A stretch of DNA of 64,000 bases, taken from Rhodospirillales bacterium (lineage in GTDB: Bacteria > Pseudomonadota > Alphaproteobacteria > Rhodospirillales > WMHbin7). Below the pieces are notes generated by a model that was not told the DNA's origin, ran no database searches, and saw only the letters and a list, made by a program, of their open reading frames with translations. The DNA lies in assembly GCA_016214125.1 (NCBI GenBank), contig JACRPC010000043.1, forward strand, positions 62,001-126,000. Direction: 5' to 3'. Of this stretch, positions 13,045 to 60,376 are shown in pieces; position 1 is the first letter of the stretch, and each line of letters starts with the position of its first letter. Position numbers and translations under genes: made by a program.

Positions 13045-13054
13045 GAGACGCGCC

Positions 13055-16133: not shown

Positions 16134-16146
16134 GGAGGGGCGCCCC

Positions 16147-43237: not shown

Positions 43238-43353
43238 GCCCGGGGTCGGGCGTTTAATCAATCTTCAATCTTTTGTGTCACAACAAGGGTCGAATCGGAT
43301 TCGATCCGCCTTCGGCATGGGCCCTGGGCGGGGCGTTCCAAGCGAGGCCATCG

Positions 43354-45399
43354 GTGGCGAACGTGGGTGGAAGCGAGGCGGGCAAGGTCAGGCGCGGACT
43401 GACCCGAACGGTGCTGGCCGGCAGCCTGACGTTCCTGCTGGTCGGATGCCCCAGCTACGACCGCTATGGCGGACTGTCCAAGGACGAGTATCAAGCGCTG
43501 ATGGACCGGCGCGGTCCCGAGGAGGCCCGCCCGCGCGAGGCGCCGCCCATTCCCGATCTGCAGCCGATCCTGGCCGCGCCGCTGTCGCCGGCCTCGCTGG
43601 AGAGCCGGCTGGTGTCGTTGCAGGTGACGGATACCGTGTCGCTGCGCGACGTGCTTCTGGAATTGACCCGCAAGGTCGGCGTCGATCTGGAGATGGACAC
43701 CGCCATTCAAGGCGGCATCATCTTTTCCGCCTACGAGCGGCCCTTCACCCAGGTCATCGACCGCATCGCCGAACTGGCGGGCTTGCGCTACCAGTTGAAG
43801 GACGGCGTGCTTCGGGTGGAAATCGACAACATGTACCACCAGTCCTATCGGGTGGACGCCATCAATCTGGTGCGGACGTCGAAGAGCAACGTCGCCACCA
43901 ACACCAATGTTTTCGCCGCGGTGAGCGGCGGCTCCGGCGGCGGCGGCGGCAACACCTCGTCGAGTTCGGTCGACGGCACCTCCGAGGCCGATCTGTGGAA
44001 GGAGCTGACGGCCAACATCCAGCAGATCGTCACCAACTCCGATCCGCGCAACCGGCCCAATCTGTCGCGGACCATCGCCACCAGCGCCGGCAGCAGTTCG
44101 TCGACCGCGGCGCCCGTGCCGGAAGCGGCGCCGCAAACGCCGGTGACCAGCGCGCCCACCGCGCTTACGCCCGCGACGACGGGCAGCATCGCCAGTCCGG
44201 TGGCGGCGGCGGCGCAGGTCGCCCAGGCCACCACGGCGGCGGTCAATCAGGCCACCGGCGCCAGCGCGACCGCCACACCCGCCAGCGGGGGCACCACCGG
44301 AAGCGGGAGCGCGACCGGCGGCACCGCCGCCCGCAGCACGACGGCCACCGCCGCGACCGCCACGCCCGCACCGGCGGCGCCAACGTCCACCACGCAAAGC
44401 TTCTTCAGCGTCAACAAGCAGGCCGGCATCATCTCGGTCTTCGGCACTCAGCGCCAGCACCGGCTGGTGCGGACTTATCTCGAGATGGTCAAGCGCTCGG
44501 TCTCCAGCCAGGTGCTGATCGAAGCCAAGGTGCTGGAGGTGACGCTCTCGGACGCCCACAAGACCGGCATCAACTGGCGTACGGTGGGCGGCTGGAACGT
44601 CAACGCCGCCCAGCCGCTGGGGATCAGTTCGACCAGCGCGACCGGCGCCACCACCACCACCTTGCCGTCCGTCGGGCCGCCTTTCACCACCTTCAATACG
44701 GCGACGTCGAACTTCCTGACCGTCGGCTTCTTGAACAAGCGGCTCGATCTCAACGTGCTGGCCAGCCTGATCCAGGAATTCGGCACCGTGCGCACGCTCT
44801 CCAGCCCGCGCCTGACGGCGATGAACAACCAGACCGCCGTCTTGAAGGTGGCGGAGAACGAGGTCTATTTCCGGGTCGACATCCAGACCACCACCAACAA
44901 CGGCGTCAGCCAAACCACCTATTCCAGCACCATGAACACGGTGCCGATCGGGCTGGTGCTTACCGTCCAGCCCTCGATCAATCTCGACACCGAGGAAATC
45001 GCGCTCGGCCTGCGGCCGACCATTTCCCGCATCGCAAGGCGGGTCAACGATCCGGCGGTCGATCTGCAGGCGGCCGCGGCAGGGTCCTCGGTGACCTCGG
45101 CGGTGCCGGTGGTCGAGGTGCGCGAGATGGATTCGGTGGTTACCGTGCCTTCGGGCCAGGTGGTGGTGATGGGCGGGCTGATGCAGGAGCGCATCCAGAA
45201 GAACACCACCGGCGTGCCCGGCGCCCAGGACCTGCCGTTGTTCGGCAACCTCTTCAAGGCCAACGCCGATCAGATCACGCTCACCGAATTGGTGATTCTC
45301 CTGCGTGCCACCGTCGTCCATGCCGGCGATTCGATCGCGCCGGCCGACCGCGATCTCTACACCCGTTTCACCCGCGATCCCCGTCCGCTCGCCTTCTAG
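43354..45399 (+). CDS. mshL: MshL/PilQ-type outer-membrane secretin lipoprotein
   Basis: A 681-residue secretin, the outer-membrane gate for the pilus. The signal ends in the lipobox LLVGC (cysteine near residue 31). An N-terminal domain (about 85-190) binds the periplasmic partners. A Ser/Thr/Ala/Gly-rich low-complexity stretch fills about residues 190-350. The beta-barrel secretin domain covers about 355-655, including VPSGQVVVMGGLM and the VPGAQDLPLFGNLFK motif. GTG at 43354 with a GAGG site gives a proper signal; a TTG 27 codons upstream is unlikely. Neighbours on both sides are pilus genes. Confidence 0.9.
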   Translation: MANVGGSEAGKVRRGLTRTVLAGSLTFLLVGCPSYDRYGGLSKDEYQALMDRRGPEEARPREAPPIPDLQPILAAPLSPASLESRLVSLQVTDTVSLRDVLLELTRKVGVDLEMDTAIQGGIIFSAYERPFTQVIDRIAELAGLRYQLKDGVLRVEIDNMYHQSYRVDAINLVRTSKSNVATNTNVFAAVSGGSGGGGGNTSSSSVDGTSEADLWKELTANIQQIVTNSDPRNRPNLSRTIATSAGSSSSTAAPVPEAAPQTPVTSAPTALTPATTGSIASPVAAAAQVAQATTAAVNQATGASATATPASGGTTGSGSATGGTAARSTTATAATATPAPAAPTSTTQSFFSVNKQAGIISVFGTQRQHRLVRTYLEMVKRSVSSQVLIEAKVLEVTLSDAHKTGINWRTVGGWNVNAAQPLGISSTSATGATTTTLPSVGPPFTTFNTATSNFLTVGFLNKRLDLNVLASLIQEFGTVRTLSSPRLTAMNNQTAVLKVAENEVYFRVDIQTTTNNGVSQTTYSSTMNTVPIGLVLTVQPSINLDTEEIALGLRPTISRIARRVNDPAVDLQAAAAGSSVTSAVPVVEVREMDSVVTVPSGQVVVMGGLMQERIQKNTTGVPGAQDLPLFGNLFKANADQITLTELVILLRATVVHAGDSIAPADRDLYTRFTRDPRPLAF

Positions 45400-45431: not shown

Positions 45432-46205
45432 ATGCGCGCCACCTTCCTTTACGTGCTGCTCACCACCCTGCGCGACCGGCTGTTTCTGGCCCTCGTCCTG
45501 GTCGTCTTGCTGGCCGATCTGATTTCCGGCTATCTCGGACGTTCGGCCTTTGCCGAAGGCCAGGCGATGACGCTGGCGTTCGCCGGCACGGCGGCCCGTT
45601 TGGCCCTGGTGTTCGGGCTTCTGGTCTTTGTCGCCTATCATGTCCGGCGCCTGGCCGAATCGCGCGAGATCGAGACCATGCTGACCCGGCCGATCGGGCG
45701 CGAGGGATTCGTCCTGGCCTATGGCGGCGGGCTTGCCGTGGTGACGGTGCTGCTGGTGCTGCCCCTGGTGGTCCTTCTCGCCCTGTTCTTCCGTCCGGGC
45801 CTGGAAGGCCTGCTTGCCTGGGGGCTGTCGCTTTTGCTGGAAGGGCTGGTGGTGATGGCCTTGGCCCTGTTCGCCGCCCTGGCGCTGGAGAGCGCCATCG
45901 CCGCAGTGATGACGGGCGGCGCCATCTATGCGCTGGCCCGGCTGATGCCGGCTTTCGTCGACATCGCCAACGCCCGCGCCCATGTGGGGGCCGAGGAGAC
46001 CGCCTTCGACATTTTCGCCCGCACCGCCATCAATCTGCTTTCGATCCTGATGCCCAGGCTCGACCTTTTCAGCCAGACCGGCTGGCTGGTGCATGGGCTT
46101 CCGGCGGAAGGTGCCGCGCTGCGCCCGGTTCTCGTCCAGGCGGCAATCTATCTGCCCTTGCTTTTCCTGGCGGCGATGTTCGATCTGCGCCGCAAGCGGT
46201 TCTGA
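45432..46205 (+). CDS. ABC-2 type permease within the pilus locus
   Basis: A 257-residue membrane protein with six predicted helices in the ABC-2 pattern. After the second helix the sequence AESREIETMLTRPIGREGFV resembles the ATPase-coupling segment of ABC-2 permeases (ESREI...L..PI.R..). No ATPase gene is adjacent; the only unpaired ABC ATPase in the window is at 57969-58709, in the same locus. Together they recall PilI and PilH of the Myxococcus PilGHI transporter. The export substrate is unknown. Confidence 0.7.
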   Translation: MRATFLYVLLTTLRDRLFLALVLVVLLADLISGYLGRSAFAEGQAMTLAFAGTAARLALVFGLLVFVAYHVRRLAESREIETMLTRPIGREGFVLAYGGGLAVVTVLLVLPLVVLLALFFRPGLEGLLAWGLSLLLEGLVVMALALFAALALESAIAAVMTGGAIYALARLMPAFVDIANARAHVGAEETAFDIFARTAINLLSILMPRLDLFSQTGWLVHGLPAEGAALRPVLVQAAIYLPLLFLAAMFDLRRKRF

Positions 46206-46209
46206 AAGG

Positions 46210-46914
46210 ATGGTCGGGTTTCGCAGCCTTTTCGGCCAAATCCACGCGAGCACGCTGCTCCTGATCGGCGTCGCCCTCGCGCAATTGGTCTTCTGGTCGC
46301 TCACCCGCACCATCCGGGTCGAGCCCGAACTGGTGCCGCCCCCGCCCACGCCGAAGGCGCTCGACATCCTGGCCTTCGGCGATCGCCAGTTCCTATATCG
46401 CGCGCTGGGGCTTGAAGTGCAGAATTTCGGCGACACCGGCGGGCGCTTCACGCCGCTTCTGGACTACGACTACGCCCGCCTGGGGGAATGGTTCGACCGC
46501 CTGGACCGGCTGGACCCGGTGGCCGATTACGCCCCGGCGATCGCCGCCCAATATTACGGCCTCACCCCCACCGGCGCCGATACGGTTCACATCGTGCTCT
46601 ATTTGGCCCGCCATGCCCGGCGCGACATCACCCACAAATGGCGTTGGCTGGCCCAGGCGGCCTATATGGCGCGGCACAAGGCCAAGGATCTGCCCCTGGC
46701 GCTCGACCTGGCACGCGAACTGGCTGAACTGTCGAACCGTTATCCCGGCCTTCCGGTCTGGACCCACTCGATGCCGGCCTTTATCCTGGCCGAGATGGGC
46801 GAGACCGAGGCGGCCCGCCTCTTGCTGGGGGCCATCTTGGAAAGCGAACCCAGCCTCTCGCCCGAGGAGGTGCGCGGCATGAAAGGCCATATCCGGCGCT
46901 GGTCGAGACGATAA
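46210..46914 (+). CDS. Membrane-anchored helical protein next to the ABC permease
   Basis: A 234-residue protein. One N-terminal helix (about residues 14-32) anchors a soluble periplasmic domain rich in paired helices (for example WRWLAQAAYMARHKAKDLPLA), close to TPR repeats. There is no lipobox and no known motif. The start ATG follows the permease stop by a few bases, so the two are probably made together. It could be the accessory third component of the ABC system, as PilG is in Myxococcus. This role is inferred from position only. Confidence 0.55.
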   Translation: MVGFRSLFGQIHASTLLLIGVALAQLVFWSLTRTIRVEPELVPPPPTPKALDILAFGDRQFLYRALGLEVQNFGDTGGRFTPLLDYDYARLGEWFDRLDRLDPVADYAPAIAAQYYGLTPTGADTVHIVLYLARHARRDITHKWRWLAQAAYMARHKAKDLPLALDLARELAELSNRYPGLPVWTHSMPAFILAEMGETEAARLLLGAILESEPSLSPEEVRGMKGHIRRWSRR

Positions 46915-46929
46915 GGTGGTGGACCCCGC

Positions 46930-48063
46930 ATGAACGAGCCGGTTTTTACCATCGCGCAGGCCTTCCAGTTGATGGGGCTGGTCCAGTGCGGCATGGTGAT
47001 CCTTTATCTGGTTTTCTGCGGCGGCGACCGCCGGCGGCGCCTGATGGCGGGCGCCTTCTTCCTGGTGTTGGCCGGCGTCTTCCTGCTGCCTTTCGCCAGG
47101 ACCATCCTCTCCCCATCCTTGCGCGCCTTGCTGGCGATCGTCGCGTCGGCGGTGCCGGCGATGAGTTTTCTCTTGGCCAAACAGGTCCTGGGCGGCCAGG
47201 CGCCGCCGGCGCGCTATCTGCTGATCCTGTTGGTGCCGCTCTTGGGGGCGCCGCTCTTCGGCTACGCGGCCGTTCCCGCCGAATTGTGCCTGCCGAGGCT
47301 TGGGTGTTTCGACGCCCATCCGCTCACCATGCTGTTCCGCATCCTGGCCGGCGGCGCCGTCCTGCTGGCGACCATGGCGCTGATCGAATCGATGCTGGCC
47401 GAGGCGATGGCCAAACAGCATGGCAAGGAACGGCGAGGGTTGGCGCTTGCCTTGATCGTGGTCAACGCCGCCACCCTGCTTTCGGTGCTGGCCGAACTGT
47501 CGGGCGGGCTTGAGTCCTTCGAGGCGGTGTTCGTCGAAACCACGCTGGGTCTGGCTTTCATCTATCTCACCACCTCGATGGTCTTTCGCATCTATCCCGA
47601 ATCGCGGGAAATGCGAATCGACGACACGCCTTCGGAGCCCCTCATGCCCCAGCCGGGCGCCCGTCAGGGGCTTGACGATGAGGACCGCGCCCTGGTCGCC
47701 CGAATCGAGCAGTTTCTGACCGAAACCAAAGCTTTCAAGAAGGAAAACTTCCGGCGCGAGGATTTGGCGGCGGCGCTGGGCGTGGCCGAGCATCGGCTGT
47801 CACGAGTCGTCAACGCCGGATTCGGCAAAAGCCTCACCGATCTGTTGAACGAATATCGCGTGGACGAGGCCAAACGGTTGCTGGCGACCACCGATTTGCA
47901 GATTACTCAGATCGCCTTTGCCTCGGGCTTCAACGCGCTGGCCTCCTTCAACCGGGTTTTTCGTCGCCATGTCGGTGCCGCCCCCACTCAATTCCGCCAA
48001 TCGCAAGGCGCCAACAAAAAAACGATTCTCACTTCGCAAGATGAGAAGACGAAAGCCCTCTAA
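46930..48063 (+). CDS. Membrane-bound AraC-type transcription regulator
   Basis: A 377-residue protein. Residues 1-220 hold about seven transmembrane helices; residues 265-365 are a C-terminal AraC helix-turn-helix domain with the family stretch ITQIAFASGFNALASFNRVFRR near residue 325-345. Such seven-helix AraC regulators are thought to sense membrane or envelope signals. It sits directly before the pilin gene and a palindrome, so it may control pilin expression. It is a local regulator in an otherwise structural locus. Confidence 0.85.
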   Translation: MNEPVFTIAQAFQLMGLVQCGMVILYLVFCGGDRRRRLMAGAFFLVLAGVFLLPFARTILSPSLRALLAIVASAVPAMSFLLAKQVLGGQAPPARYLLILLVPLLGAPLFGYAAVPAELCLPRLGCFDAHPLTMLFRILAGGAVLLATMALIESMLAEAMAKQHGKERRGLALALIVVNAATLLSVLAELSGGLESFEAVFVETTLGLAFIYLTTSMVFRIYPESREMRIDDTPSEPLMPQPGARQGLDDEDRALVARIEQFLTETKAFKKENFRREDLAAALGVAEHRLSRVVNAGFGKSLTDLLNEYRVDEAKRLLATTDLQITQIAFASGFNALASFNRVFRRHVGAAPTQFRQSQGANKKTILTSQDEKTKAL

Positions 48064-48065
48064 AG

Positions 48066-48078
48066 TAAGAAATTCTTA
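48066..48078. promoter_or_regulatory. Perfect palindrome before the pilin gene
   Basis: TAAGAA-A-TTCTTA is a perfect 13-base palindrome three bases after the AraC-type gene stop and 81 bases before the pilin start. It may be an operator. It has the form of a dimer site; AraC proteins usually bind direct repeats, so the binding partner is open. An exact -35/-10 pair was not found nearby. Confidence 0.4.
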
Positions 48079-48158
48079 TCGTTTTATCCCTAGTCTGGTC
48101 AAAATTGGCCGGGATTGGGCCTTGGGCTTCGGCCCGACCAGGAAGGAAAGACGGTTTC

Positions 48159-48947
48159 ATGAAGGCTTGGCTGGAACGGAAGCGGGAGGCGCTCGAACAC
48201 CGTATGGCCGCGATGGCCGAGGACGAATCGGGCTTTACCCTGATCGAAATGTCGATCGTGCTGGTGATCATCGGCCTGATCATCGGCGGCGTGCTGAAGG
48301 GCCAGGAGCTGATCAACAGTACTCGCCTCAAGGCCACGGTTTCGCAGTGGGACGCCAGCAAGGCCGCCATCAACGGTTTCCAGGACAAGTACAATTCCCT
48401 TCCCGGCGATTATAACGACGCCAACGTCACCATTTCGGCGGCAGGAGTGTTGAATGGCGGAGCGACCGGCCTGGGCAATGGCACGGTGGGAACGCTTTAT
48501 ACCGATGGCAACGCTTTCAACACCGACGTGTCGGGCGCCACAACCGAGAATTTGAACGCCTGGGCGCATTTGGGCGCCGCCGGTCTGGTGGCTGGGATCA
48601 CCGTTTGCACCACCGCCGACACGTTGCAGGCGGCCGCCTCCGGCGGCGTGATGTCGGGTAAGATATCCGGCACCTCCTGGGCCATCGTCCACGCCACGGT
48701 CAACAATTCGACCTCGCTTTGGTCGCGGCTGCAATTCGGTACCGGCGCGCCCGCCTCGGCGGTTTCCGGCAAGGATGCGGCCGAAATCGACCGCAAATTC
48801 GACGACAACAATGCCATTCGCGGCTCGATCCAGTCCTATCCGCAAGGCGCGACCAATGTCAGCACCGGTTGCTCGGCGGATACGACCGGAACCTACAGCG
48901 CCTTGGCGACGACCCGATCCTGTACGACGGTTTTCAATCTTCAATAA
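48159..48947 (+). CDS. Type IV prepilin, probable major pilin of the locus
   Basis: A 262-residue prepilin. A 25-residue leader (MKAWLERKREALEHR...) ends in the cleavage motif G-FTLIE, with the glutamate at position 5 of the mature protein. A hydrophobic helix follows (IVLVIIGLIIGGVLKGQEL). The long C-terminal domain is Gly/Thr/Asn/Ala-rich with a few cysteines near the end (STGCSADTT, RSCTTVF) that may form a disulfide loop. PilD is expected to cleave it. It follows the AraC regulator and ends at its own terminator, which fits a highly expressed subunit; that it is the major pilin is inferred. Confidence 0.85.
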   Translation: MKAWLERKREALEHRMAAMAEDESGFTLIEMSIVLVIIGLIIGGVLKGQELINSTRLKATVSQWDASKAAINGFQDKYNSLPGDYNDANVTISAAGVLNGGATGLGNGTVGTLYTDGNAFNTDVSGATTENLNAWAHLGAAGLVAGITVCTTADTLQAAASGGVMSGKISGTSWAIVHATVNNSTSLWSRLQFGTGAPASAVSGKDAAEIDRKFDDNNAIRGSIQSYPQGATNVSTGCSADTTGTYSALATTRSCTTVFNLQ

Positions 48948-48971
48948 GCAGCGGTCCTTGGTGGGTGGGAA

Positions 48972-49002
48972 GCGGGCGGGGTTGTTCCCGCCCGTTTCTT
49001 TT
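48972..49002 (+). terminator. Intrinsic terminator after the pilin gene
   Basis: CGGGCGGG (48973-48980) pairs with CCCGCCCG (48987-48994) around a six-base loop and is followed by TTTCTTTT. It should separate pilin mRNA from the downstream genes. Confidence 0.88.
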
Positions 49003-49071
49003 GCCGTTGCCCCGAACCCGAATCTCTGATGCCCTGCCGGAGTAAAGAGGGGAATTTCAGGGATCGCCGCC

Positions 49072-51735
49072 ATGGCCGGCACGGGACGGAAAACCGGAAA
49101 AATCGAAGGACGCGCCGCAACGGGCGACGACGATTTCGAAATCGAGGAACGCCATCTCGATCGGGCCGGAACCGAATTGGATTCCGTCTCGGCCGGCCTG
49201 ATGGCGGGAGCCGAAGGGAGCTGGCGGGCCAGCGTGATGAAGGCCGGCTTGGCGCGGCGGCGTTACAGCCCGTTCGTTCGTTTTCTCATCCGTCAACTTC
49301 TTCGCCCCCGGCTGCTGAAAGGCATTAGCCAGCCGGACGCCCTGTTGTTTTTGGGTACGGTCGCCCAAAGCGTCGGCAAGGAGGCGCTGGGCGAGGAGCT
49401 GCTGCTGCGCGCCGCCGACGCCGACCCCCAACGGGCGGCGGCGCATGGACGCCTGGCCGAGGCGCTGTTGGTCCAGGGGCACCAGGCCGAAGCCGAGGCC
49501 GCCTTCCGCAAGCGTTTGGCGGTCGATCCCAAGGAGGTGGCGGCGCAACTGGGTTTGGCGATCGCGCTTCAAGGCCAGGGACGCCTAGCCGAAGCGGAAC
49601 GCACCCTTCGTTATGCCCTCAAGGAACAGCCCGACGAACCGAACCTCAGCTCGCTGCTGGGCAGCCTGCTTCTGGCGTCGGGCCGCCGGGAGGAGGCGCT
49701 GAAGCTGTGCCGCCGGCTGGTCGAACTCCGTCCTACCGACGCTTCGGCTCTTTCCAATCTTGGCAACGTGCTGACGGTGCTGGGGCGGCGCGAAGAGGCG
49801 GTGGCGGCTTGTCGGCGGGCGCTTGAGCTTGATCCCGATCTGCCCGAGGCGTTGTGCAATCTGGGCAGCCACCTCTTTGATCTGGGCCGGATCGCCGAGG
49901 CGAAGGATCATCTCGAGCGGGCGCTGGCGGCGCGGCCCGATATGGTCGAGGCGCTCTGCAATCTGGGCAACGTCCATCACAGCCTAAAGAATTTCACCGA
50001 GGCCGAGGCGCTTTTCCGCAAGGCGTTGGCCCTGGCGTCCACCCGGCCGGAATTGCTGACCAATCTCGGCAACGCCCTCTTTGGCCAGACGCGCTTTGCC
50101 GAGGCGCTCGCCTACCACCAGCGGGCCGTCGAATTGGCGCCTGCGGTTCCGATCCATCTTAACAATCTTGGCAACAGCCTGCAGAAGCTCGATCGCCTCG
50201 ACGAAGCCCTGGACGCTTACCGCAAGGCGATCGCGCTCGATGCCAAAATCCCCAACTTCCATGAAAATACCGCCAGCGTGCTTACCCGCATGGGTCTTTA
50301 CCGCGAGGCGCTGCAAGCGATCCGCCGGGCCATCCGGCTTGGCGCCCATCCGACGGCACGGATCAAGGAGGCGGTAATCCTGCCGATTATCGTGGGATCG
50401 TCCGACGAGATCGAGACGGCGCGCACCCATTTGCGCCAGGGCCTCGATCGTCTGGTGCAGGAAGGGGTTGCGCTCGACGACCCGTTAAAACGGGTCAACG
50501 CGACCACCTTCCATCTGGCCTATCACGCCAAGCCCGACCGCGAACTTCAGGAATTGGCGGCGCGCGTCTACCGGCAATCCTGCCCCGACCTGACTTGGAC
50601 GGCGGCCCATTGCCGGGGCGAGCGGCGGAAGACTCCACGGGACCGCCGCATCCGCATCGGCTTTCTTTCCGATTTCTTCCGCGAAACCCATACGGTCGGA
50701 AGGCTCTATCGCGGCCTGATCGAAACGCTGCCGCGCGACCGCTTCGAGGTCATTCTGCTGCCGATCGGGCGTGAACCCAACGAAGCCAAGGCCAAATTCG
50801 AGGCGGTGGCCGAGCGCGTCGTTCGGCTGCCCGAGGCGATCAGCGACATCCGCCAAATCGTCGGCGATCTCGAACTCGATATTCTCTATTACGCCGACAT
50901 CGGCATGACGCCCTTCACCTACTATCTGGCCTTTTCTCGCTTGGCGCCTTTGCAATGCGTGGGCTGGGGACACCCCGACACCACCGGCATTCCCACGCTC
51001 GATCTTTTCGTTTCCGCCGAGCCCCTGGAGCCGCCGGGTGCCGAGGCGCATTACAGCGAGCGGCTTTTGAAGCTGCCCCGCATCCCGCTTTTTTACACGC
51101 CGCCCAAGCCTCCGGAGGGCGGCCTGCGCGACCGCGATTACCTAAAATTGCCCAAGGACAAGCGCCTTTACATCTGCACCCAGACGCTTTTCAAGCTGCA
51201 CCCTGAATTCGACGAAGCTCTGGCGGGCATCTTGGAGGGCGATGAGCAAGGAATGCTGGTCTTCATCGGATCGCGCACCCGATCGTGGGTCGAGTTGCTG
51301 AAGGCCCGCCTCGCCAAGCGCCTTGGCGTCAACATCAACCGGGTGCTGTTCCTGCCGCCCTTGGGCCATGCCGATTTCCTGTCCTTGAACGGGGTCGCCG
51401 ACGCGCTGCTCGACACCTTCCATTTCTCCGGCGGCCACACCAGCCTGGAGGCCTTCGCCTTCGACGCGCCGGTGGTCACCTGGCCGGGCGAATTCATGCG
51501 CGGCCGGGTGACTCTGGGCTATTACCGCCAGATGGGCATGGAGGATCTGGTGGCCCGCGATCCGGCGCATTACGTCGAACTCGCCCTGCGCCTGGCCAAG
51601 GACCGCGACTGGCGCCAGGCGATGCGCGAAAAAATCCGCGAGCGCAAGGCGGCGGTGTTCGAGGACGCAGCCTCGATCGAATTTCTGGCCCGCGCCCTGG
51701 AAGACGAGCTGCGGAAAAACGGATTTAAGACCTGA
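49072..51735 (+). CDS. TPR / O-GlcNAc-transferase-like protein (GT41-like)
   Basis: An 887-residue soluble protein. About ten tetratricopeptide repeats cover residues 90-430. The C-terminal half (about 520-880) resembles the SPINDLY/OGT catalytic region: IGFLSDFFRETH, LQCVGWGHPDTTGIPTLD, a sugar-nucleotide-loop region, and LDTFHFSGGHTSLEAFAFDAPVVTW. Such enzymes attach a sugar to Ser or Thr of proteins. The gene lies between the Ser/Thr-rich pilin and mshE, so pilin glycosylation is a reasonable guess. The first 60 residues are charged and unusual. Sugar and target are unproven. Confidence 0.75.
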   Translation: MAGTGRKTGKIEGRAATGDDDFEIEERHLDRAGTELDSVSAGLMAGAEGSWRASVMKAGLARRRYSPFVRFLIRQLLRPRLLKGISQPDALLFLGTVAQSVGKEALGEELLLRAADADPQRAAAHGRLAEALLVQGHQAEAEAAFRKRLAVDPKEVAAQLGLAIALQGQGRLAEAERTLRYALKEQPDEPNLSSLLGSLLLASGRREEALKLCRRLVELRPTDASALSNLGNVLTVLGRREEAVAACRRALELDPDLPEALCNLGSHLFDLGRIAEAKDHLERALAARPDMVEALCNLGNVHHSLKNFTEAEALFRKALALASTRPELLTNLGNALFGQTRFAEALAYHQRAVELAPAVPIHLNNLGNSLQKLDRLDEALDAYRKAIALDAKIPNFHENTASVLTRMGLYREALQAIRRAIRLGAHPTARIKEAVILPIIVGSSDEIETARTHLRQGLDRLVQEGVALDDPLKRVNATTFHLAYHAKPDRELQELAARVYRQSCPDLTWTAAHCRGERRKTPRDRRIRIGFLSDFFRETHTVGRLYRGLIETLPRDRFEVILLPIGREPNEAKAKFEAVAERVVRLPEAISDIRQIVGDLELDILYYADIGMTPFTYYLAFSRLAPLQCVGWGHPDTTGIPTLDLFVSAEPLEPPGAEAHYSERLLKLPRIPLFYTPPKPPEGGLRDRDYLKLPKDKRLYICTQTLFKLHPEFDEALAGILEGDEQGMLVFIGSRTRSWVELLKARLAKRLGVNINRVLFLPPLGHADFLSLNGVADALLDTFHFSGGHTSLEAFAFDAPVVTWPGEFMRGRVTLGYYRQMGMEDLVARDPAHYVELALRLAKDRDWRQAMREKIRERKAAVFEDAASIEFLARALEDELRKNGFKT

Positions 51736-51812
51736 ATCGACCGGTCCGCCAGTTGCCGGAAGGCGGCTTTCGCCTTACTATTCCGGTTTGAATTTCTCGG
51801 TCCGGGTTGGTG

Positions 51813-54002
51813 ATGAACGTCAATGTGCCGCCGGGCGGCGCCAAGCCCTCCGGCCAACCTCAGCAGAACGCCATTCCGGCCGCGCCCCGTCCCGCCGCTC
51901 CGGCCGCCCCGGTGCGGCCAGCGGGCGCCCAGCCGCTGATGGCCAAGCCGGCGGCCCAAGCCCAAGCCGTGGCGGGCGCGCCCCGCCCGGTGGCCCAGCC
52001 CGCCCGTCCCGCCCAACCCCAACCGGCGGCTGCCAAGCCGGCGGCCAAGCTGGAATTCGGCGACCAGATCGGCGGCAAGCCCACTCAACCGGCGGCGCCA
52101 CCGGCCACCAAGCTGCAATTCGCCGAACCGGGCGCTCCGGTCGCGCCTTCGCCGGCAGCCAGGCCCGCTCCGGCTCCAGCGGCGGCCGCGGCGCCGCCCG
52201 CCGCCCGCCCAATGCAGGCCGCCCCGCCCTCTGCCCCGCCCTCCGCGCCCATCGCGCCCTCGGCCCCGCTTGCCCCTTCGTCGCCCACCCAGCCCGGCGG
52301 GGCGCCGGCCGGCGGTGGCGGCGGCTTGGCCCGCATCGGCGACAAGCTGGTCGAGATGGGCCTGATTTCCAAGGACCAGTTGCAGGTCGCCCTGTTCGAG
52401 AAGAAGCGCTCGAACAAGATGCTGGGCCAGACCCTGATCGATCTGGGGTTCATCACCGAACAGGCGCTGTCGCAGGTTCTGGCCTCAAGCTCGGGCTTCG
52501 AGCGTTTCGATCCCAAGAGCACGGTGGTCGAACCCGAACTGGTGCGAAAATTCCCCAAGGAGGTGGCGGCGCGCTACCGCGTCTTCCCGGTGGCCGCCGA
52601 CAGCCAGACCGCCCGGCTGGCGATGGCCGACATCTACGACGTGTTGGCGCTCGATCAGGCGCGGCGCTATTTCCCCTCGGGCGTCGAAATCCTGCCCCTG
52701 GTCTGCAGCGAGACCGAGATCGCCGAGGCGATCGATCAGTATTACGGCTACGAGCTGTCGATCGACGGCGTCCTGCGCGAGCTGGAAACCGGCAAGCACG
52801 ACACCTCGGCCGCCGCCTTGAGCGGCGACACCGGTTATGTCCATCCGCTGGTGCGTCTGGTCAACGCGCTCGTACTCGACGCCGTCAAGGTCGGTGCCTC
52901 CGACATCCATTTCGAGCCGGAAGGCATGTTCCTGCGCCTGCGCTACCGCATCGACGGCGTGATGACTCAGGTGCGCACCATCCACAAGAACCACTGGCCG
53001 GCGATCTCACACCGCCTGAAGATCGTGTCGGGCATGAACATCGCCGACAAGATCAACCCGCAAGACGGCCGCTTCGGCATCAATGTCGGCAACCACAAGG
53101 TCGATTTCCGCGTTTCCGCCCTGCCCACCGTGCATGGCGAGAACATCGTGCTGCGCATTCTCGATCGCAGCCGGTCGCTGCTCGGCATCGACAAGCTGGG
53201 CTTGAGCGAGGCCAACGAGGCGCTGCTCTTGCGGCTCCTGAAGCGCCCGGAGGGGATCATCATCGTCACCGGCCCCACCGGTTCCGGTAAGACGACGACG
53301 CTGTATGGCGTCCTTCACCACATCAACTCGCTCGACATCAACATCATGACGCTGGAGGACCCGGTCGAGTACGAACTGCCGCTGATCCGCCAGTCGCAGG
53401 TTCGCGAAGGCACCGGGCTCAATTTCGCCGACGGCGTGCGGGCGCTGTTGCGCCAGGACCCCGACGTGATCTTCATCGGCGAGGTGCGCGACAAGGACAC
53501 CGCCACCATGGCGCTGCGCGCCGCGATGACCGGCCACCAGGTCTTCACCACCTTGCACACCAACGACGCGCCGGGCGCCCTGCCGCGCCTGGTCGATCTT
53601 GGCATGGAAGTGACTCTGATGGCCGGCAACATCATCGGCATTCTCGCCCAGCGTCTGGCGCGCCGGCTGTGCGCCTGCCGGACGATGAGGCCGGCATCGC
53701 ACGACGAATGCCGCATCCTGGGTGCCAACCCCGCCCACCCGCCGGTCATCGGCCATCCCACCGGTTGCGAGGCCTGCCGGATGACCGGCTATAAGGGACG
53801 GATCGCCGTGCACGAGCTTCTGCCCATGAACAAGGAGCTTGACGAAATGGTGATCAACGGCGTCTCGATGAACACGCTGCGCGAGGCGGCGCGCAAATTC
53901 GGGTACATCCCGATGGCCGACGACGGCATCGCCAAGGTGTTGAAGGGGATCATCAGCATGGACAGCCTGATCGAGACCGTCGACGTCACCGACCGCCTGT
54001 AA
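51813..54002 (+). CDS. mshE: MshE/GspE-type pilus assembly ATPase
   Basis: A 729-residue hexameric ATPase that drives pilus extension. An unusual N-terminus of about 165 residues is almost all Pro and Ala. A GspE N-terminal domain follows (about 173-316), then the ATPase core with Walker A GPTGSGKTT (about 487-495), the Asp box and Walker B (DPDVIFIGEVRD), and the His box (TGHQVFTTLHT). The zinc-binding cysteines are C620, C622, C652 and C655. The start is uncertain between ATG 51813, GTG 51810 and TTG 51807. mshG follows after four bases. Confidence 0.92.
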   Translation: MNVNVPPGGAKPSGQPQQNAIPAAPRPAAPAAPVRPAGAQPLMAKPAAQAQAVAGAPRPVAQPARPAQPQPAAAKPAAKLEFGDQIGGKPTQPAAPPATKLQFAEPGAPVAPSPAARPAPAPAAAAAPPAARPMQAAPPSAPPSAPIAPSAPLAPSSPTQPGGAPAGGGGGLARIGDKLVEMGLISKDQLQVALFEKKRSNKMLGQTLIDLGFITEQALSQVLASSSGFERFDPKSTVVEPELVRKFPKEVAARYRVFPVAADSQTARLAMADIYDVLALDQARRYFPSGVEILPLVCSETEIAEAIDQYYGYELSIDGVLRELETGKHDTSAAALSGDTGYVHPLVRLVNALVLDAVKVGASDIHFEPEGMFLRLRYRIDGVMTQVRTIHKNHWPAISHRLKIVSGMNIADKINPQDGRFGINVGNHKVDFRVSALPTVHGENIVLRILDRSRSLLGIDKLGLSEANEALLLRLLKRPEGIIIVTGPTGSGKTTTLYGVLHHINSLDINIMTLEDPVEYELPLIRQSQVREGTGLNFADGVRALLRQDPDVIFIGEVRDKDTATMALRAAMTGHQVFTTLHTNDAPGALPRLVDLGMEVTLMAGNIIGILAQRLARRLCACRTMRPASHDECRILGANPAHPPVIGHPTGCEACRMTGYKGRIAVHELLPMNKELDEMVINGVSMNTLREAARKFGYIPMADDGIAKVLKGIISMDSLIETVDVTDRL

Positions 54003-54006
54003 GACG

Positions 54007-55215
54007 ATGCCGCTGTTCGCCTACCGAGCCCTCGACGCCAACGGCCGCTCGGTGCGGGGCCAGCTCAACGCCGCCAACGACGTCGACTTGTTCCAGCGCT
54101 TGAAGGACACCGGCTTCGAGCTGGTGACCGCCAGCGAGGTCAAGCCCAATAGGCTCGCCAGCCTGCTGGCGCCTGGAATCAAGGCCCGCGACCTGATCCA
54201 GATGTGCGTCCATCTCCAGCAACTGAACGCCGCCGGCGTCTCGCTGATCGAAGGCCTGGCCGATGTGCGCGATTCCACCGACCAGGCCCGGCTGCGCGAC
54301 ATCGTCGCCGAAATCCACCGCGACGTTTCCGAAGGCCGTTCGCTGTCCCAGGCCTTCGAGCGCCACCCCAAGATCTTCGGCACCGTCTTCACCTCGCTGA
54401 TTTCGGCCGGCGAGGAAAGCGGCAATTTGAGCGAATCCTTCAGCCAGCTCGTCAAGCACCTGAAATGGACCGACGCCATCACCACGAAGATCAAGAAGGC
54501 GATCCGTTACCCCTCGATCATGCTGGTGGTGATCGTTGGCCTGTTCTTCTTCATGATGATTCTGGTGGTGCCGGAAGTGGTGTCGTTCCTGCGCTCGACC
54601 GGCCAGAATCTGCCGACGGTGACCTTGGCCCTCATCGCTACCTCGGACTTCATGATCGATTTCTGGTACCTGGTGCTGACGGTGCCGATCGCGGCGGCGG
54701 TCGGGCTGCGTGCCCTGGCGGCGGCGTCCGAGGAATTCGCCTACAAGGTCGATTACCTTCTGCTGCGCCTGCCCAAACTGGGCGAGATGATCCGCAAGAT
54801 CGCCCTGTCGCGCTTCGCCCATTTCTTCGCCGTCATGTTTCAAAGCGGGGTGCCGATCTTGCAATGCATCGAGACGGCGACCAAGGTGGTCAACAACCGG
54901 GTGCTGTCGCAATCGCTCTCGGTCGTTCATCGCGGCGTCCAGCAGGGCAATTCCTTTTCGCTGGCGCTGCGCGATTCCGGCGAATTTCCAAGTCTGGTGA
55001 TCCGCATGGTCAAGATCGGCGAGGACAGCGGCAATCTTTCCGAGACGCTGGAGAACGTCACCAGCTTCTACGACAACGATGTCGACGAGGCGATCGATGC
55101 CCTGTTGGCGATGATGGAGCCGGCGCTCACCGTGGTCGCCGGCATTCTGATGACCTGGATCGTCGTGGCGGTGATCGGGCCGATCTACGAAAGCTTCAGC
55201 AAGCTGGGGATCTAG
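54007..55215 (+). CDS. mshG: MshG/GspF-type inner-membrane platform protein
   Basis: A 402-residue membrane protein with three helices that couples the assembly ATPase to pilin polymerisation. Two repeated GspF domains are seen (about residues 65-190 and 270-395), each with the ISAGEESGNLSE- or KIGEDSGNLSET-type motif. The N-terminus (MPLFAYRALDANGRSVRGQL) is characteristic of the family. It directly follows mshE. Confidence 0.95.
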   Translation: MPLFAYRALDANGRSVRGQLNAANDVDLFQRLKDTGFELVTASEVKPNRLASLLAPGIKARDLIQMCVHLQQLNAAGVSLIEGLADVRDSTDQARLRDIVAEIHRDVSEGRSLSQAFERHPKIFGTVFTSLISAGEESGNLSESFSQLVKHLKWTDAITTKIKKAIRYPSIMLVVIVGLFFFMMILVVPEVVSFLRSTGQNLPTVTLALIATSDFMIDFWYLVLTVPIAAAVGLRALAAASEEFAYKVDYLLLRLPKLGEMIRKIALSRFAHFFAVMFQSGVPILQCIETATKVVNNRVLSQSLSVVHRGVQQGNSFSLALRDSGEFPSLVIRMVKIGEDSGNLSETLENVTSFYDNDVDEAIDALLAMMEPALTVVAGILMTWIVVAVIGPIYESFSKLGI

Positions 55216-55217
55216 CG

Positions 55218-56846
55218 GTGGCGTTCGACCTTTCCCTGCATCATTTCACGCGACGCTTCATCCTGGTGCTGGGCGACGAGGGCGCCGTCCTGGTGCATGT
55301 GGTGCGGGGCGGCGTGCGCAACGCCTGGTTCGTGCCCGCCGATTCCGAGGAAGGGCCCGAGGCCTTCTCCGAGTTCTTCGCCACCGATCGCGCCGCGACG
55401 CTTTTCGTCGAGGTCGACACCATCGAACAGCTCTACCGCGAAGAGACGCTGCCCAAGGCCAACATTCTCGATCACGCCAAGGTGCTGGCGCGGCGCCTGA
55501 GCATCGCCTTTCCGTCCGAGGAGTTGCGGGCGGCGGTGCCGCTGAAAGGCAAGGACAAGGCCAGCCGCAAATACCTTTTCACCGCCTTGCCGCTGTCGCC
55601 TTGGCTCAAGCGCTGGGCGGCGTTGATCGAGAAGCTTCCCAACCCGACCATCGCCTTCTGCCTGCTGCCGATCGAGTCCCAGGCGATGGTGCGCGAACTG
55701 GCGCCCACGCCCGGCTCGGCCAAGGCGGGGGACCGGCACTGGCGCATGCTGGTGACCTTGCAAGTGACCGGCGGTTTTCGCCAGATCGTCGAGCTCAACG
55801 ATCAGCTTATCCTCACCCGCATGACCCAGCGTTCGGCCGAGGATGTCGAGCCGGCCGATCTTGCGGCGTCGATCGAGCGCGAATTCAAATCCTCGATCAG
55901 CTATCTGAAGCGCCTGGGCTTTCAAGACAGCGACCCCTTCGACTTGGTTATTCTGATCGGCGCCGACTCCCATGAAGCCGTGCGCGCCCGGGCGTTCGAC
56001 ACTTCGAGCCTCACCGTTCTCACGCCGTTTGAGGCGGGGCAGCGTTTGGGGTTCAAACGGAGCGCCGACCCCGAAAGCCCCTACAGCGATGTGCTGCACG
56101 CTCTTTGGCTCAGCCGCAAGATGGCGATGCCGCTGCGGCTGGCGACGCCCACCATCCAGCGCCAATTCTACCTGGCGCAAACGCGCCGCTTTGCGCCGAT
56201 CACCGTGGGTGCGCTCACGCTTGCCCAGCTTATGTATGCCGGGTCGGTCGGGCAGGAGATTTGGGACAGCATGGATCTGCGCGCCAACCGCCAGACGGAT
56301 CTAAGCTCGGTGCGCCAGCAACATGAACGTCAGCTTGGCGAACTGAAGAAATTGCCGGTGTCGATCGAGGAGATGCGCGCCACCTTCCAGGCGAATGCGG
56401 CGCTCGACAAGCGCGCCCTGGCCTTGGGGCCGATCTGGTCGGGATTGGATCGGGCTTTGGGGGCCGAGGCGCGTTTGCTCCGTTACAATGTCGAGGTCGA
56501 GGGCGAAAAGCCGGGTGATGCCCCCGCCGCCGGCCGCCCCGCCCGTCCGCAGCCGCCGCGCCCGGGCACTCCGGCGGCGGCGCCTGCCGATGGTCCGCCC
56601 CATAAACTCGGCCTGACCGCCGAGTTTTCGAGCGCGATCGGCCAGCCGGCCCTGGCGCTCGATCAGGCGCGGGCGCTTGCCAGCCGTTTGACGGCGGCCC
56701 TGCCCGGTTACAAGATCGAGATCGGGCGCTTGCCGGTCAGCGTTCTGCCCGGCCAGACCTTCACCGGCTCGCAGGGCGGCGCCAGCCGCGAGGAGCAGCG
56801 CCGCCAGGCCAGTGCCGACTACCTTGTGCGCAAGGGAAACCCCTGA
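55218..56846 (+). CDS. MshI-like (PilM-PilN type) pilus assembly protein
   Basis: A 542-residue protein. The N-terminal 310 residues could correspond to a PilM-type cytoplasmic domain but lack a clear actin-type nucleotide motif. A short hydrophobic segment (about 325-348) leads to a coiled coil (about 355-400), a Pro-rich linker (about 437-465) and a C-terminal domain like PilN (about 470-520, with ALASRLTAALPGYKIEIGRL). This order matches MshI of MSHA systems. The start is GTG at 55218, three bases after mshG. The call rests mainly on position between mshG and a PilO-like gene. Confidence 0.5.
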   Translation: MAFDLSLHHFTRRFILVLGDEGAVLVHVVRGGVRNAWFVPADSEEGPEAFSEFFATDRAATLFVEVDTIEQLYREETLPKANILDHAKVLARRLSIAFPSEELRAAVPLKGKDKASRKYLFTALPLSPWLKRWAALIEKLPNPTIAFCLLPIESQAMVRELAPTPGSAKAGDRHWRMLVTLQVTGGFRQIVELNDQLILTRMTQRSAEDVEPADLAASIEREFKSSISYLKRLGFQDSDPFDLVILIGADSHEAVRARAFDTSSLTVLTPFEAGQRLGFKRSADPESPYSDVLHALWLSRKMAMPLRLATPTIQRQFYLAQTRRFAPITVGALTLAQLMYAGSVGQEIWDSMDLRANRQTDLSSVRQQHERQLGELKKLPVSIEEMRATFQANAALDKRALALGPIWSGLDRALGAEARLLRYNVEVEGEKPGDAPAAGRPARPQPPRPGTPAAAPADGPPHKLGLTAEFSSAIGQPALALDQARALASRLTAALPGYKIEIGRLPVSVLPGQTFTGSQGGASREEQRRQASADYLVRKGNP

Positions 56847-57508
56847 TGGCGGCCTCGATCAACATCGACCTCAAGGATCTGGCCAAGCTTCCCCGAGCCC
56901 TGACGGTGTCGGCGGCAATTCTGATCGTCAATCTCGGCGCCTGGTTCTTCGCCGTGCCCGAGTTGGAGGGCTGGCTCGACGAGATCAAGGGCGAAACCAA
57001 GAAGATCGAGGGCGAAATCAGCGGCTTCCGCCAGCGGCTCAACACCATCCGCAACGAGCGCGCCAATCTGGCCAAGCTCGAGGAGGAGTACAAGGCGCTG
57101 CTCGAGGCGGGTTGGTTTCAGCCGCAGGACCGGTTGGAGGCCGAGCGCCGCCTGCGCGCCTTGGCCGAGGCGCATCGGTTGGTGTTGCCGCTCACTTTCC
57201 AGATCCTGGCCGAGAAGTATGAAGCCGTGCCCGGCAATGTCGGCATCGATCTGGTGGCGAGCGAGATTCAGCTAACCCTGCGCGCGGTTCAGGATGGCGA
57301 CGTGATGGCCTTTCTGGCCGAACTGGGCAAGGGGGGCTTTCCCGGTCGCGTCACCTTGGACCGGTTTGCCTTGGCGCGGGTGAAGGAACCCAGCCCGGCC
57401 CTGTTGGCCGATCTGCGCGCCGGCAAGGTCGTGGAATTGGTCGAGGGCGATGTTCGTTTTCGCTGGGTTACGCTGCGCAAGACTCCCCCCAAGGGAGACG
57501 GCAAATGA
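56846..57508 (+). CDS. PilO/MshJ-like pilus assembly protein
   Basis: A 220-residue protein with one transmembrane helix (about residues 18-40), a coiled coil (about 45-90) and a periplasmic ferredoxin-like domain (about 95-215). This is the layout of PilO, GspM and MshJ. The start shares one base with the previous stop, and the stop overlaps the next gene by four bases. It should form the inner-membrane alignment complex with the preceding protein. Confidence 0.6.
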   Translation: MAASINIDLKDLAKLPRALTVSAAILIVNLGAWFFAVPELEGWLDEIKGETKKIEGEISGFRQRLNTIRNERANLAKLEEEYKALLEAGWFQPQDRLEAERRLRALAEAHRLVLPLTFQILAEKYEAVPGNVGIDLVASEIQLTLRAVQDGDVMAFLAELGKGGFPGRVTLDRFALARVKEPSPALLADLRAGKVVELVEGDVRFRWVTLRKTPPKGDGK

Positions 57509-57972
57509 AGCGGCTGGCGATGGCGCTGTTCGGAATCGTCCTTGCCGTTCCTGGCCTGGCTCAGACCCCGGCGCCACCGAAGGTCGAGGACGCACCCGCG
57601 CCCGCCTTGCCGGCCTCGCTGATGTTCAGCCCCACCGATCTGGCCGAGATCGAAAAGGCGCGCCGGCGCCAGGCGGGCGCGTCTGGGCTTGCCCAGTGGG
57701 GAAGCGAGGCGGCGGTTCCCATGAAGGCGATGGGCAATGTCTATCTTTCCGCCCTCATGTATCTGGGCGCCAACCGCTGGACGGCCTGGATCAACGGCCA
57801 ATCCTTCGGACCGGGCGCCGCCACCGACACCATCCGCGTGCTCGGCGCGGCGCCCCATCATGTCGATCTGGAGGTGGAGGTGCCGGACCGCCCGCCCTTG
57901 CGGCTGCGTCTGGCGCCCAATCAAACCTATCTGGCCGCCGAAGGCCGGGTGATCGAGGGCATCGTGCCATGA
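57505..57972 (+). CDS. PilP/MshK-like periplasmic protein
   Basis: A 155-residue protein with a signal peptide (cleaved near GLAQT), a Pro/Ala linker and a small beta domain. The stretch VYLSALMYLGANRWTAWING resembles the HR/GspC-type domain of MshK, PilP and GspB, which links the inner-membrane complex to the secretin. No lipobox is seen. Position directly after the PilO-like gene supports the call. Confidence 0.55.
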   Translation: MKRLAMALFGIVLAVPGLAQTPAPPKVEDAPAPALPASLMFSPTDLAEIEKARRRQAGASGLAQWGSEAAVPMKAMGNVYLSALMYLGANRWTAWINGQSFGPGAATDTIRVLGAAPHHVDLEVEVPDRPPLRLRLAPNQTYLAAEGRVIEGIVP

Positions 57973-58709
57973 GCCAAATGCGCCCGCTCGCGGTCGAGGG
58001 CGTCGCGGCCGGCTATGGCGGCCAGCCGGTGTTTGCCGATCTGAGCCTTGAGGTCGAGGCGGGCGAGATCGTCGGCCTGATCGGCTTGAATGGCGTCGGC
58101 AAGACCACCCTGATCAAGGCGATTCTGGGACTGGTCGAATGCCAGGGCGCCATCCGCCTGTTCGGCGAGGATTTCCGCCGCCCCGAAAGCCGACGCCATC
58201 TGGCTTATCTGCCGGAAAAATTCCAACCCTCGCATCTGCTGAAAGGCTGGGAGTTCCTGTCGCTGACCCTGTCCTATTACGGCCGGCCGCTCGATCGCGA
58301 ACGAGCCCGCGCGATGGCCTTGGGGCTCGATCTCGATCCGGAGGTTCTGGGCAAGAGCGGGCGCAGCTATTCGAAGGGCATGGGGCAGAAGCTGGGTCTG
58401 GCCGCCACCTTGCTCACCGGCCTGCCGCTGCTCGTTCTTGACGAGCCGATGAGCGGGCTCGATCCCCGGGCGCGCATCCGTCTCAAGGATCAATTGCTCG
58501 CCACCCGCCAGGAGGGGCGATCGGTGTTTTTCAGTTCCCACATCCTGGCCGATATCGAGGAAATCTGCGACCGGATCGCCGTGCTGCATGGCGGGCGGCT
58601 GATTTATGTCGGCCCGCCGGCGCCTTTCCGCACCCGCCATGGCGGGGCGACGCTGGAGCGCGCCTTCCTGGCGGCGATCACCGCCGCCGAAGGCGGCGCT
58701 ATTCGATGA
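57969..58709 (+). CDS. ABC transporter ATPase of the pilus locus
   Basis: A 246-residue ABC ATPase of the ABC-2 exporter type. Walker A is GLNGVGKTT, Walker B is LLVLDEPMSGLDP, and the signature region is the variant YSKGMGQKLGLAATL. It starts in an ATGA overlap with the PilP-like gene, so it belongs to the pilus operon. Its likely partner is the lone ABC-2 permease at 45432-46205. The pair resembles PilH and PilI of Myxococcus type IV pili. The 3' end overlaps the convergent cupredoxin gene by 11 bases. Confidence 0.88.
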   Translation: MSQMRPLAVEGVAAGYGGQPVFADLSLEVEAGEIVGLIGLNGVGKTTLIKAILGLVECQGAIRLFGEDFRRPESRRHLAYLPEKFQPSHLLKGWEFLSLTLSYYGRPLDRERARAMALGLDLDPEVLGKSGRSYSKGMGQKLGLAATLLTGLPLLVLDEPMSGLDPRARIRLKDQLLATRQEGRSVFFSSHILADIEEICDRIAVLHGGRLIYVGPPAPFRTRHGGATLERAFLAAITAAEGGAIR

Positions 58710-59187
58710 CGAAATTGCCGGTCATGCCCCGGGTGGCGTGCAAAGGCTGGTCGCAATAGACGTCGAAGGCGCCGGTGCGCACGGCGACGAATTTGATCTC
58801 GGCGTTGGTTTCCGCTTTCAGGGTGACCTTTTCCAGCCGGGGGGTGGCGATCACCTCGCCATCCTTGCCGTAGACGATAAGATCGCGCACCGCGATCGAC
58901 TGGAAGAAGGGAATTGATTTCAGCGAATGGGTGATGGTGTCGTCGTTGCGCAGCGTCAGCACATAGGCCTTGCCGGTCTTGAAGACCCGCTGCTGCGGCG
59001 TCATTTCGTAATTGGACAGTTCAATATGGATGGCTTCGGCCTTGGTCCAGTCGACGCTGGCGGTGCGACCCTTGGGATCGGGAACATAGGCCGCGTAATT
59101 GCCGGCCAAGGTGGCGTGCTTGGCCACCGCGCAAGCGGCCAGTGCAAACGATAAAATCACGAAGGCGATAAGAGACCGCTTCGGCAT
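58699..59187 (-). CDS. Cupredoxin-like lipoprotein
   Basis: A 162-residue lipoprotein with lipobox LAAC (cysteine 19). The mature domain reads as a cupredoxin. A full type 1 copper set is present: H87, C145, H150 and M155, with four residues between C and H and four between H and M, as in azurin. It may carry electrons or handle copper in the periplasm; a link to nitrate respiration or to pili is open. ATG at 59187 gives the signal; the frame opens at 59220. It is transcribed in the same direction as the pilT/pilU genes, with a 67-base gap. Confidence 0.75.
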   Translation of the reverse strand: MPKRSLIAFVILSFALAACAVAKHATLAGNYAAYVPDPKGRTASVDWTKAEAIHIELSNYEMTPQQRVFKTGKAYVLTLRNDDTITHSLKSIPFFQSIAVRDLIVYGKDGEVIATPRLEKVTLKAETNAEIKFVAVRTGAFDVYCDQPLHATRGMTGNFVIE

Positions 59188-59254
59188 GGCCGAACCTCGC
59201 TCAACCGATTGTGCGATCATCGCTTAGCAAAGGTTAAGGAAGTCTTACGAATTC

Positions 59255-60376
59255 CTACAAAGACAGCTTCGAGGTATCGACGCCCTTCAGGCCTTCGGCG
59301 CCCCCGGTGGTGGCGCGCATGATCTGCAGCTTGAGATCGTTGGCGTTGTCGGCCTCGGCCAAGGCGGTTTCCATCTCGATCTGGCCGGCGGCGTAGAGAT
59401 TGTAGAGGTATTGGTCGAAGGTCTGCATGCCGGTGTCGGTGTTGGCGGCCATCACCGGCTTGATCTCCTTCACCTCGCCCTTGCGGATCAGATCCTTGAT
59501 CAGGCCCTGATTGAGCAGGATTTCCATCGCCAGCACCCGGCCGCCGCCCTTCTTCGCCACCAGCCGCTGCGAAACGATGCCGCGCAGATTGAGCGACAGA
59601 TTGAGCAGCACCTGATGGTGCATCTCCTTATCGAAGAAGTTCAGCACCCGCTCGATCGCCTGGTTGGCGTTGTTGGCGTGCAAGGTGGCCAGGGCCAGAT
59701 GCCCGGTCTCGGCGATGTTGATCGATTGCTGCATCGAAAAGGCGTCGCGGATTTCGCCGATCAGAATGGCGTCGGGCTTCTGGCGCAGCGTGTTTTTCAG
59801 CGCCGCTTCGAAGCTTTGGGTGTCCACGCCGACCTCGCGCTGGGTGATGATGCATTTCTTGTGGTCGTGGATGTATTCGATCGGGTCCTCGATGGTGATG
59901 ATGTGGCCGGGCTGGCTGGCGTTGCGGTGATCGATCATCGCGGCCAGCGTCGTCGATTTGCCCGAGCCGGTGCCGCCGACCAAAATCACCAAGCCCCGCT
60001 TTTCCAAGACCAGATCGCCCAGAATTTTGGGCAGACCGAGGCTGGCCATGTTGGGCACCTGGGCGGTGATGCGCCTTATCACCAGCGCCGCGTGCTGGCG
60101 CTGCTTCATGGCGTTGACGCGGAAGCGGCCCTGCTTGCCCAAATCCATCGCCATGTTGAGTTCGAGCGTGCGCTCGAATTCCTCGAGCTGGGCCGGGGTG
60201 GCGATGTCGGCCAGGATGGCGGCCAGACCGGCATCGTCGAGCGGCTCGCGCTGCAAGATGTTGAAGCCGTTGTCGCCGCGCATGGTGGGGGCGGCGCCGA
60301 AGGTGAGATAGAGGTCGGAGCCCTTGTGGGCCACCATGGTGGAAAGCCAGGTGCGGATTTTCGAGGCGTCGGGCAT
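59255..60376 (-). CDS. pilU: PilU-type retraction ATPase
   Basis: A 373-residue PilT-family ATPase. Walker A is GGTGSGKST, the Asp box is ITIEDPIEYIH, Walker B is DAILIGEIRD, and the His box is ETGHLALATLHA. The motif EIRDAFSMQQSINIAETGH and the C-terminal extension are closer to PilU than to PilT. It lies 12 bases after the pilT stop. PilU usually works with PilT to retract pili. Confidence 0.88.
   Translation of the reverse strand: MPDASKIRTWLSTMVAHKGSDLYLTFGAAPTMRGDNGFNILQREPLDDAGLAAILADIATPAQLEEFERTLELNMAMDLGKQGRFRVNAMKQRQHAALVIRRITAQVPNMASLGLPKILGDLVLEKRGLVILVGGTGSGKSTTLAAMIDHRNASQPGHIITIEDPIEYIHDHKKCIITQREVGVDTQSFEAALKNTLRQKPDAILIGEIRDAFSMQQSINIAETGHLALATLHANNANQAIERVLNFFDKEMHHQVLLNLSLNLRGIVSQRLVAKKGGGRVLAMEILLNQGLIKDLIRKGEVKEIKPVMAANTDTGMQTFDQYLYNLYAAGQIEMETALAEADNANDLKLQIMRATTGGAEGLKGVDTSKLSL

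Follow-up and report, generated by a model that had tools for sequence, protein, structure and literature searches.

Why does a type IV pilus locus code for the parts of an ABC transporter, and do these parts, which lie in two separate places, make up one machine that works for the pilus? The locus in question lies in a 64,000-nucleotide stretch of a Rhodospirillales genome, which we call the window (Table 1). A preliminary description had reported an ABC-2 permease with a membrane-anchored helical protein at 45432-46914, a lone ABC ATPase at 57969-58709, and pilus genes flanking both parts. These observations hold. Open reading frames, a weak ABC2_membrane_4 match and predicted structures agree for the first pair, the ATPase has a clear match to ABC_tran, and pilus genes do stand around both. 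The reported separation is also real, and the distance given as 12 kb measures 11.1 kb from the helical protein (hereafter the helper) to the ATPase and 11.8 kb from the permease to the ATPase. The four-base overlap of the ATPase with the PilP/MshK-like gene was likewise read correctly: the mshK gene ends at 57972 and the ATG of the ATPase begins at 57969, giving the overlap ATGA. The helper starts at 46210, the first ATG 3' of the permease.

Table 1. Genes of the pilus locus in the window, with their positions, strands and the basis of each assignment.
Feature	Position	Strand	Basis
mshN-like TPR protein	40130..41392	+	TPR families (Pfam), relatives
mshM/ExeA-like AAA ATPase	41397..42503	+	AAA_22
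pilD prepilin peptidase	42500..43237	+	A24_N_bact, Peptidase_A24
mshL-like secretin, immediately 5' of permease	43273..45399	+	TIGR02519 226.9 bits, cut-off 250.2
ABC-2 (type V) permease, 257 aa, 6 predicted TM helices	45432..46205	+	weak Pfam ABC2_membrane_4, fold, orthologues in pilus loci
Helper, 234 aa, N-terminal TM helix and all-helical TPR-like domain	46210..46914	+	predicted structure, neighbour conservation
AraC-type regulator; a common, not universal, neighbour of the helper	46930..48063	+	HTH_18 E 9.2e-23
Major pilin-like prepilin	48153..48947	+	N_methyl E 4e-6
TPR and GT41 glycosyltransferase-like protein	49072..51735	+	Glyco_transf_41 E 7.6e-18
mshE assembly ATPase with MshEN c-di-GMP-binding domain	51807..54002	+	MshEN and T2SSE matches
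mshG platform protein	54007..55215	+	T2SSF; MshG tree
mshI-like	55245..56846	+	position, weak similarity only
mshJ/pilO-like	56846..57508	+	position, weak similarity only
mshK/pilP-like, 5' of ATPase (likewise in alphaproteobacterial loci)	57505..57972	+	no Pfam match; named by position and relatives
ABC ATPase, 246 aa	57969..58709	+	ABC_tran E 3.2e-23
Lipoprotein-like cupredoxin	58699..59220	-	possible type 1 copper site (H, C, H, M)
pilU-like retraction ATPase	59255..60376	-	TIGR01420 415 bits
pilT retraction ATPase	60389..61672	-	TIGR01420 473 bits
Lytic transglycosylase-TPR protein	61721..62920	-	SLT and TPR
Prepilin; another prepilin just beyond the window edge	62890..63993	-	N_methyl

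Three other genes of the locus deserve mention. The TPR-GT41 gene, whose product resembles O-GlcNAc transferase, lies directly 3' of the pilin gene; it is present in the family of the window locus, not in all loci or relatives, and possibly codes for a pilin glycosyltransferase. The TPR part of the lytic transglycosylase-TPR protein (61721-62920, minus strand) resembles the MshN-like protein at 40130. NosDFY handles copper, which gave the idea that the cupredoxin might have a role with the ATPase; we rejected it, as no relative of the cupredoxin occurs in the loci of other family members.

The permease matches the Pfam family ABC2_membrane_4 with an E value of 7.9e-5, below the gathering score. 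Its AF2 model (mean pLDDT 87.5) shows six long helices in the membrane and short ones ahead of the last. When this fold was compared with the PDB by Foldseek, the best matches were NosY chains (E 9.3e-6, TM 0.62-0.73); lipid and peptide exporters, for example ABCG and PmtCD, are also similar. The coupling region L-x-x-P-x-x-R (residues 84-90) is conserved among 50 sequences. Just before the last TM helix, P208 is invariant and L210 and D211 are conserved, in a region that the model would place on the periplasmic side. The ATPase has a Walker A motif, a YSKGM signature, an LDEP Walker B motif and an H-loop, all conserved among 52 sequences; judged by sequence, these are the motifs of an active enzyme. 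Its nearest solved relatives are ABCA transporters and, on the prokaryotic side, 1vpl and NosF. Thus, a NosF-type ATPase and a NosY-type permease independently indicate the same ABC type, as is expected of partners. Within its own genome the ATPase has 104 ABC matches, the best at about 34% identity, and orthologues in the order share 66-70% identity, with one divergent at 43%. A permease profile search of the same genome gave no second permease orthologue.

The helper points to an undescribed protein family, without a model in Pfam or NCBIfam, neither of which gave a match. Its AF2 model (mean pLDDT 91.5) consists of a TM helix (residues 13-32), a proline-rich linker and a TPR-type alpha solenoid that is probably periplasmic. 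Compared with the PDB, the fold gave weak TPR matches only (best E 0.04), and NosD was absent among the matches listed. In the helper alignment, a single glutamine and several tryptophans hardly vary.

The preliminary description had further linked the three genes with one another and with the pilus, and this is supported by co-occurrence, by fixed neighbours and by contiguity in other groups. The conserved co-occurrence with pilus genes that it suggested looking for is found in dozens of genomes, and homologues do not mostly stand with other partners away from pilus genes. Among 160 genomes of the order, the permease and the helper occur in an identical set of six. Orthologues of the ATPase (E<1e-38) occur in the same six and in one incomplete genome (G063), whose locus, truncated by a contig end after the pilin, retains pilin-OGT-E-G-I-J-K-ATPase. 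Every genome of the order with an MshG match above 300 bits has the ATPase, or else its locus is truncated at a contig end (G024, G098). Across the class (289 genomes), the permease profile found nine further genomes with one gene each. The permease and helper are adjacent in all nine, and MshL precedes the pair except in G208, where pilD does, and in G161, where the pair is on a 12.8-kb contig without other pilus genes. The ATPases that were located in the class always stand at the end of an E-G-I-J-K block; mshJ and mshK were not detected in the block of G208.

Gene order around the trio varies. The usual alphaproteobacterial arrangement is MshL followed by permease-helper, and MshK followed by the ATPase. 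Micavibrio-type genomes are rearranged, with the order E-G-I-J-K-ATPase-N-D-T-U-L-permease-helper-AraC-pilin. In G268, the two halves are 70 kb apart on one contig, each with its own pilus genes, and the halves are likewise in separate places in four more genomes (G161, G208, G387 and G769). Because the pilus neighbours persist across these rearranged and split loci, there is strong evidence that function, not an accident of operon structure, keeps the trio. Dozens of independent genomes share these neighbours, far more than chance would give.

The trio is also found beyond the Alphaproteobacteria. A helper profile matched 33 of 398 phylum genomes, 30 of them outside this class. Many loci of other classes have the order E-G-I-J-minor pilins-permease-helper-pilin-ATPase, with the trio nearly contiguous around the pilin. 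Scanning named genomes with a narrowed version of the helper alignment yielded 56 loci, mostly from alphaproteobacterial MAGs and including Rhodospirillaceae LM-1, Telmatospirillum siberiense and Micavibrio. Gammaproteobacterial MAGs and one Burkholderiales MAG are among the further hosts, so a pilus class confined to alphaproteobacteria, as first suggested, does not stand. The permease adjoins the helper in 55 of the 56 loci and pilus genes are present in 54, the exceptions being L115 (the G161 contig) and L163, with the helper alone near a contig end. L163 comes from a MAG labelled Rickettsia typhi, a label that looks doubtful, and its helper relative has no permease. Another of the named loci (L147, Micavibrio sp. 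UBA6929) has six consecutive pilin-like genes after the AraC regulator (12030-16271).

The ATPase is present in 32 of 40 helper-positive genomes, and in 20 of the 22 that are of good quality. Counting the nearest annotated neighbour and skipping unannotated ORFs, the helper directly follows the permease in 50 of 50 cases, and the ATPase is preceded by mshK in 32 of 52 and by a pilin in 17. Permease matches of at least 72 bits among 229 phylum genomes fell only in helper-bearing genomes, mostly beside the helper; the few strong matches without an adjacent helper were in multi-copy genomes, and those of 38 bits or less look like generic permeases. A plasmid search with the helper gave no match, and nor did a scan of the named-genome contigs with a single permease sequence. 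Mirror-tree correlations are 0.86 for permease and helper and 0.82 for permease and ATPase, values not clearly above those among other pilus genes and hence not specific to the trio. We consider it very likely that the three genes code for one ABC complex serving the pilus.

Which pilus does it serve? In the window, MshE has MshEN and T2SSE domains, MshG has T2SSF and MshM an AAA domain, and MshI, MshJ and MshK are named by position and weak similarity only. TIGR02519 is the best secretin family for its MshL, with a score below the curated cut-off (Table 1). An MshL-family secretin (E<1e-40) occurs in 169 of 398 phylum genomes, 93 of them above this cut-off. In a maximum-likelihood tree of MshG, all ABC-bearing loci fall in one group (support 98/97), apart from the classical loci. 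Sixteen loci, most with the order L-M-N-E-G, were taken as classical MSHA controls, and these 16 had no orthologue of the permease, helper or ATPase. Because its MshL is below the cut-off and its MshG is in a separate clade, we place the window pilus beside the classical MSHA pilus, as a sister lineage, and not within MSHA itself. The ABC-bearing MshG group also contains two undecided loci and two that are free of the ABC genes (G692 and G775; loci L258 and L264). The pilus machine can do without the trio, since these last two belong to the same clade and have none. Thus, the trio marks the sister lineage of MSHA pili and is not indispensable in it.

How might the complex act? We infer a complex of two ATPases, two six-helix permeases and the membrane-anchored TPR-like subunit on the periplasmic side. 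One lineage of the MSHA-related type IV pili would have this complex as its dedicated accessory. By hydrolysing ATP in the cytoplasm, the ATPases would set the permease dimer in motion, and this motion would pass through the periplasmic surface of the permease to the TPR arm. The arm would in turn handle a periplasmic part of the pilus, which may be pilin, the alignment proteins MshK and MshJ, or the MshL secretin. The model for this mechanism, which we derive from the fold and the gene neighbours, is NosDFY, whose ABC motor works on a partner in the periplasm. We give this explanation as a whole (a type V ABC complex whose TPR arm is in the periplasm and which acts as a pilus accessory in a NosDFY-like way) a probability of roughly 0.8. 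The mechanical role by itself, which is argued from analogy, has slightly less than an even chance, and the remainder is split between substrate export and pilin handling. This pilus lineage very probably carries its own additional energy-using accessory. More speculatively, the ABC motor might provide an energy input beyond that of the assembly and retraction ATPases, with its TPR arm working on the secretin, the alignment proteins or the pilin, and might have an origin separate from that of PilGHI.

A pilus-dedicated complex could also be a true exporter, moving a lipid, glycan or peptide for pilus decoration or assembly. The permease fold resembles the ABCG and PmtCD exporters, the ATPase resembles ABCA lipid transporters, and a GT41-type glycosyltransferase adjoins the pilin in the family of the window locus. 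However, this glycosyltransferase is missing from most loci, and enzymes of the GT41 type draw on cytoplasmic nucleotide sugars and require no exporter. Furthermore, our profiling, which covered pilus families, showed no conserved biosynthesis gene accompanying the trio from locus to locus. Export is a tentative alternative, no more likely than a mechanical role like that of NosDFY. Less likely again is that the complex inserts, extracts or stages pilin in the inner membrane, along the lines proposed for PilGHI. In either gene order the trio adjoins the gene of the major pilin, as such a role would suggest, but Sec/SRP and YidC are the usual route of pilin insertion, and classical MSHA loci are without the trio.

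Two other explanations deny that there is a pilus-dedicated complex at all. The permease and helper might use another ATPase, and the ATPase another permease, as their distance in the window (11 kb) and in G268 (70 kb) would allow. Against this are the contiguity of the trio in other bacterial groups, its common phyletic pattern, the resemblance of both parts to the NosF/NosY type and the lack of a second permease orthologue in the genome itself, which make separate machines highly improbable. It is slightly harder still to believe that the function of the trio is independent of the pilus and that shared operons are all that links the two. The two related pilus loci without the trio would fit such hitch-hiking, but the trio is rarely found elsewhere and has kept specific pilus neighbours through repeated rearrangement and splitting. 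One pilus-dedicated ABC complex remains our favoured explanation.

An ABC module tied to the pilus of an MSHA-related lineage seems to be previously undescribed. In our literature searches, MshL, MshK and an ABC transporter did not occur together in any paper, and neither did type IV filament, MSHA, secretin and evolution with an ABC transporter; both results are weak evidence, as subscription journals were mostly outside the search. The module is a second conserved case of a pilus-linked ABC transporter, found across many species and in a pilus of another type. Trio-bearing species, including the cultured Telmatospirillum siberiense and relatives of Micavibrio, are an independent system for asking why some pili need an ABC transporter, and the ABC-free G692 and G775 are useful for asking what the module adds.

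Three known systems bear comparison. Classical MSHA loci share homologues of MshL, M, N, E and G and pilins with the window locus, but have no ABC genes (16 loci), another gene order and a separate MshG clade. Among MSHA-related pili, at least two kinds can thus be told apart, one having the ABC module and one lacking it. PilGHI consists of an ATPase, a permease and an accessory protein. Compared by composition and context, PilG-PilH-PilI of Myxococcus xanthus and the window trio both combine an ATPase, a permease and a membrane accessory within a type IV pilus cluster; PilGHI differs in its T4aP machine, its phylum and its contiguous genes. These ABC-type genes lie in the type IV pilus cluster of M. 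xanthus, and deletion mutants have no pili (PMC3724824; PMC6060248). Pilin handling has been proposed for PilGHI (PMC3724824), and the same paper cites a 1998 description of pilH in Myxococcus. PilGHI is a functional precedent for a pilus-linked ABC module. NosDFY, which serves nitrous oxide reductase maturation, shares the NosY permease fold and the NosF ATPase type with the window trio, and an ABC motor with a periplasmic partner with the complex that we propose. In contrast to NosD, the helper is TPR-like, all-helical and anchored in the membrane, and its context is a pilus.
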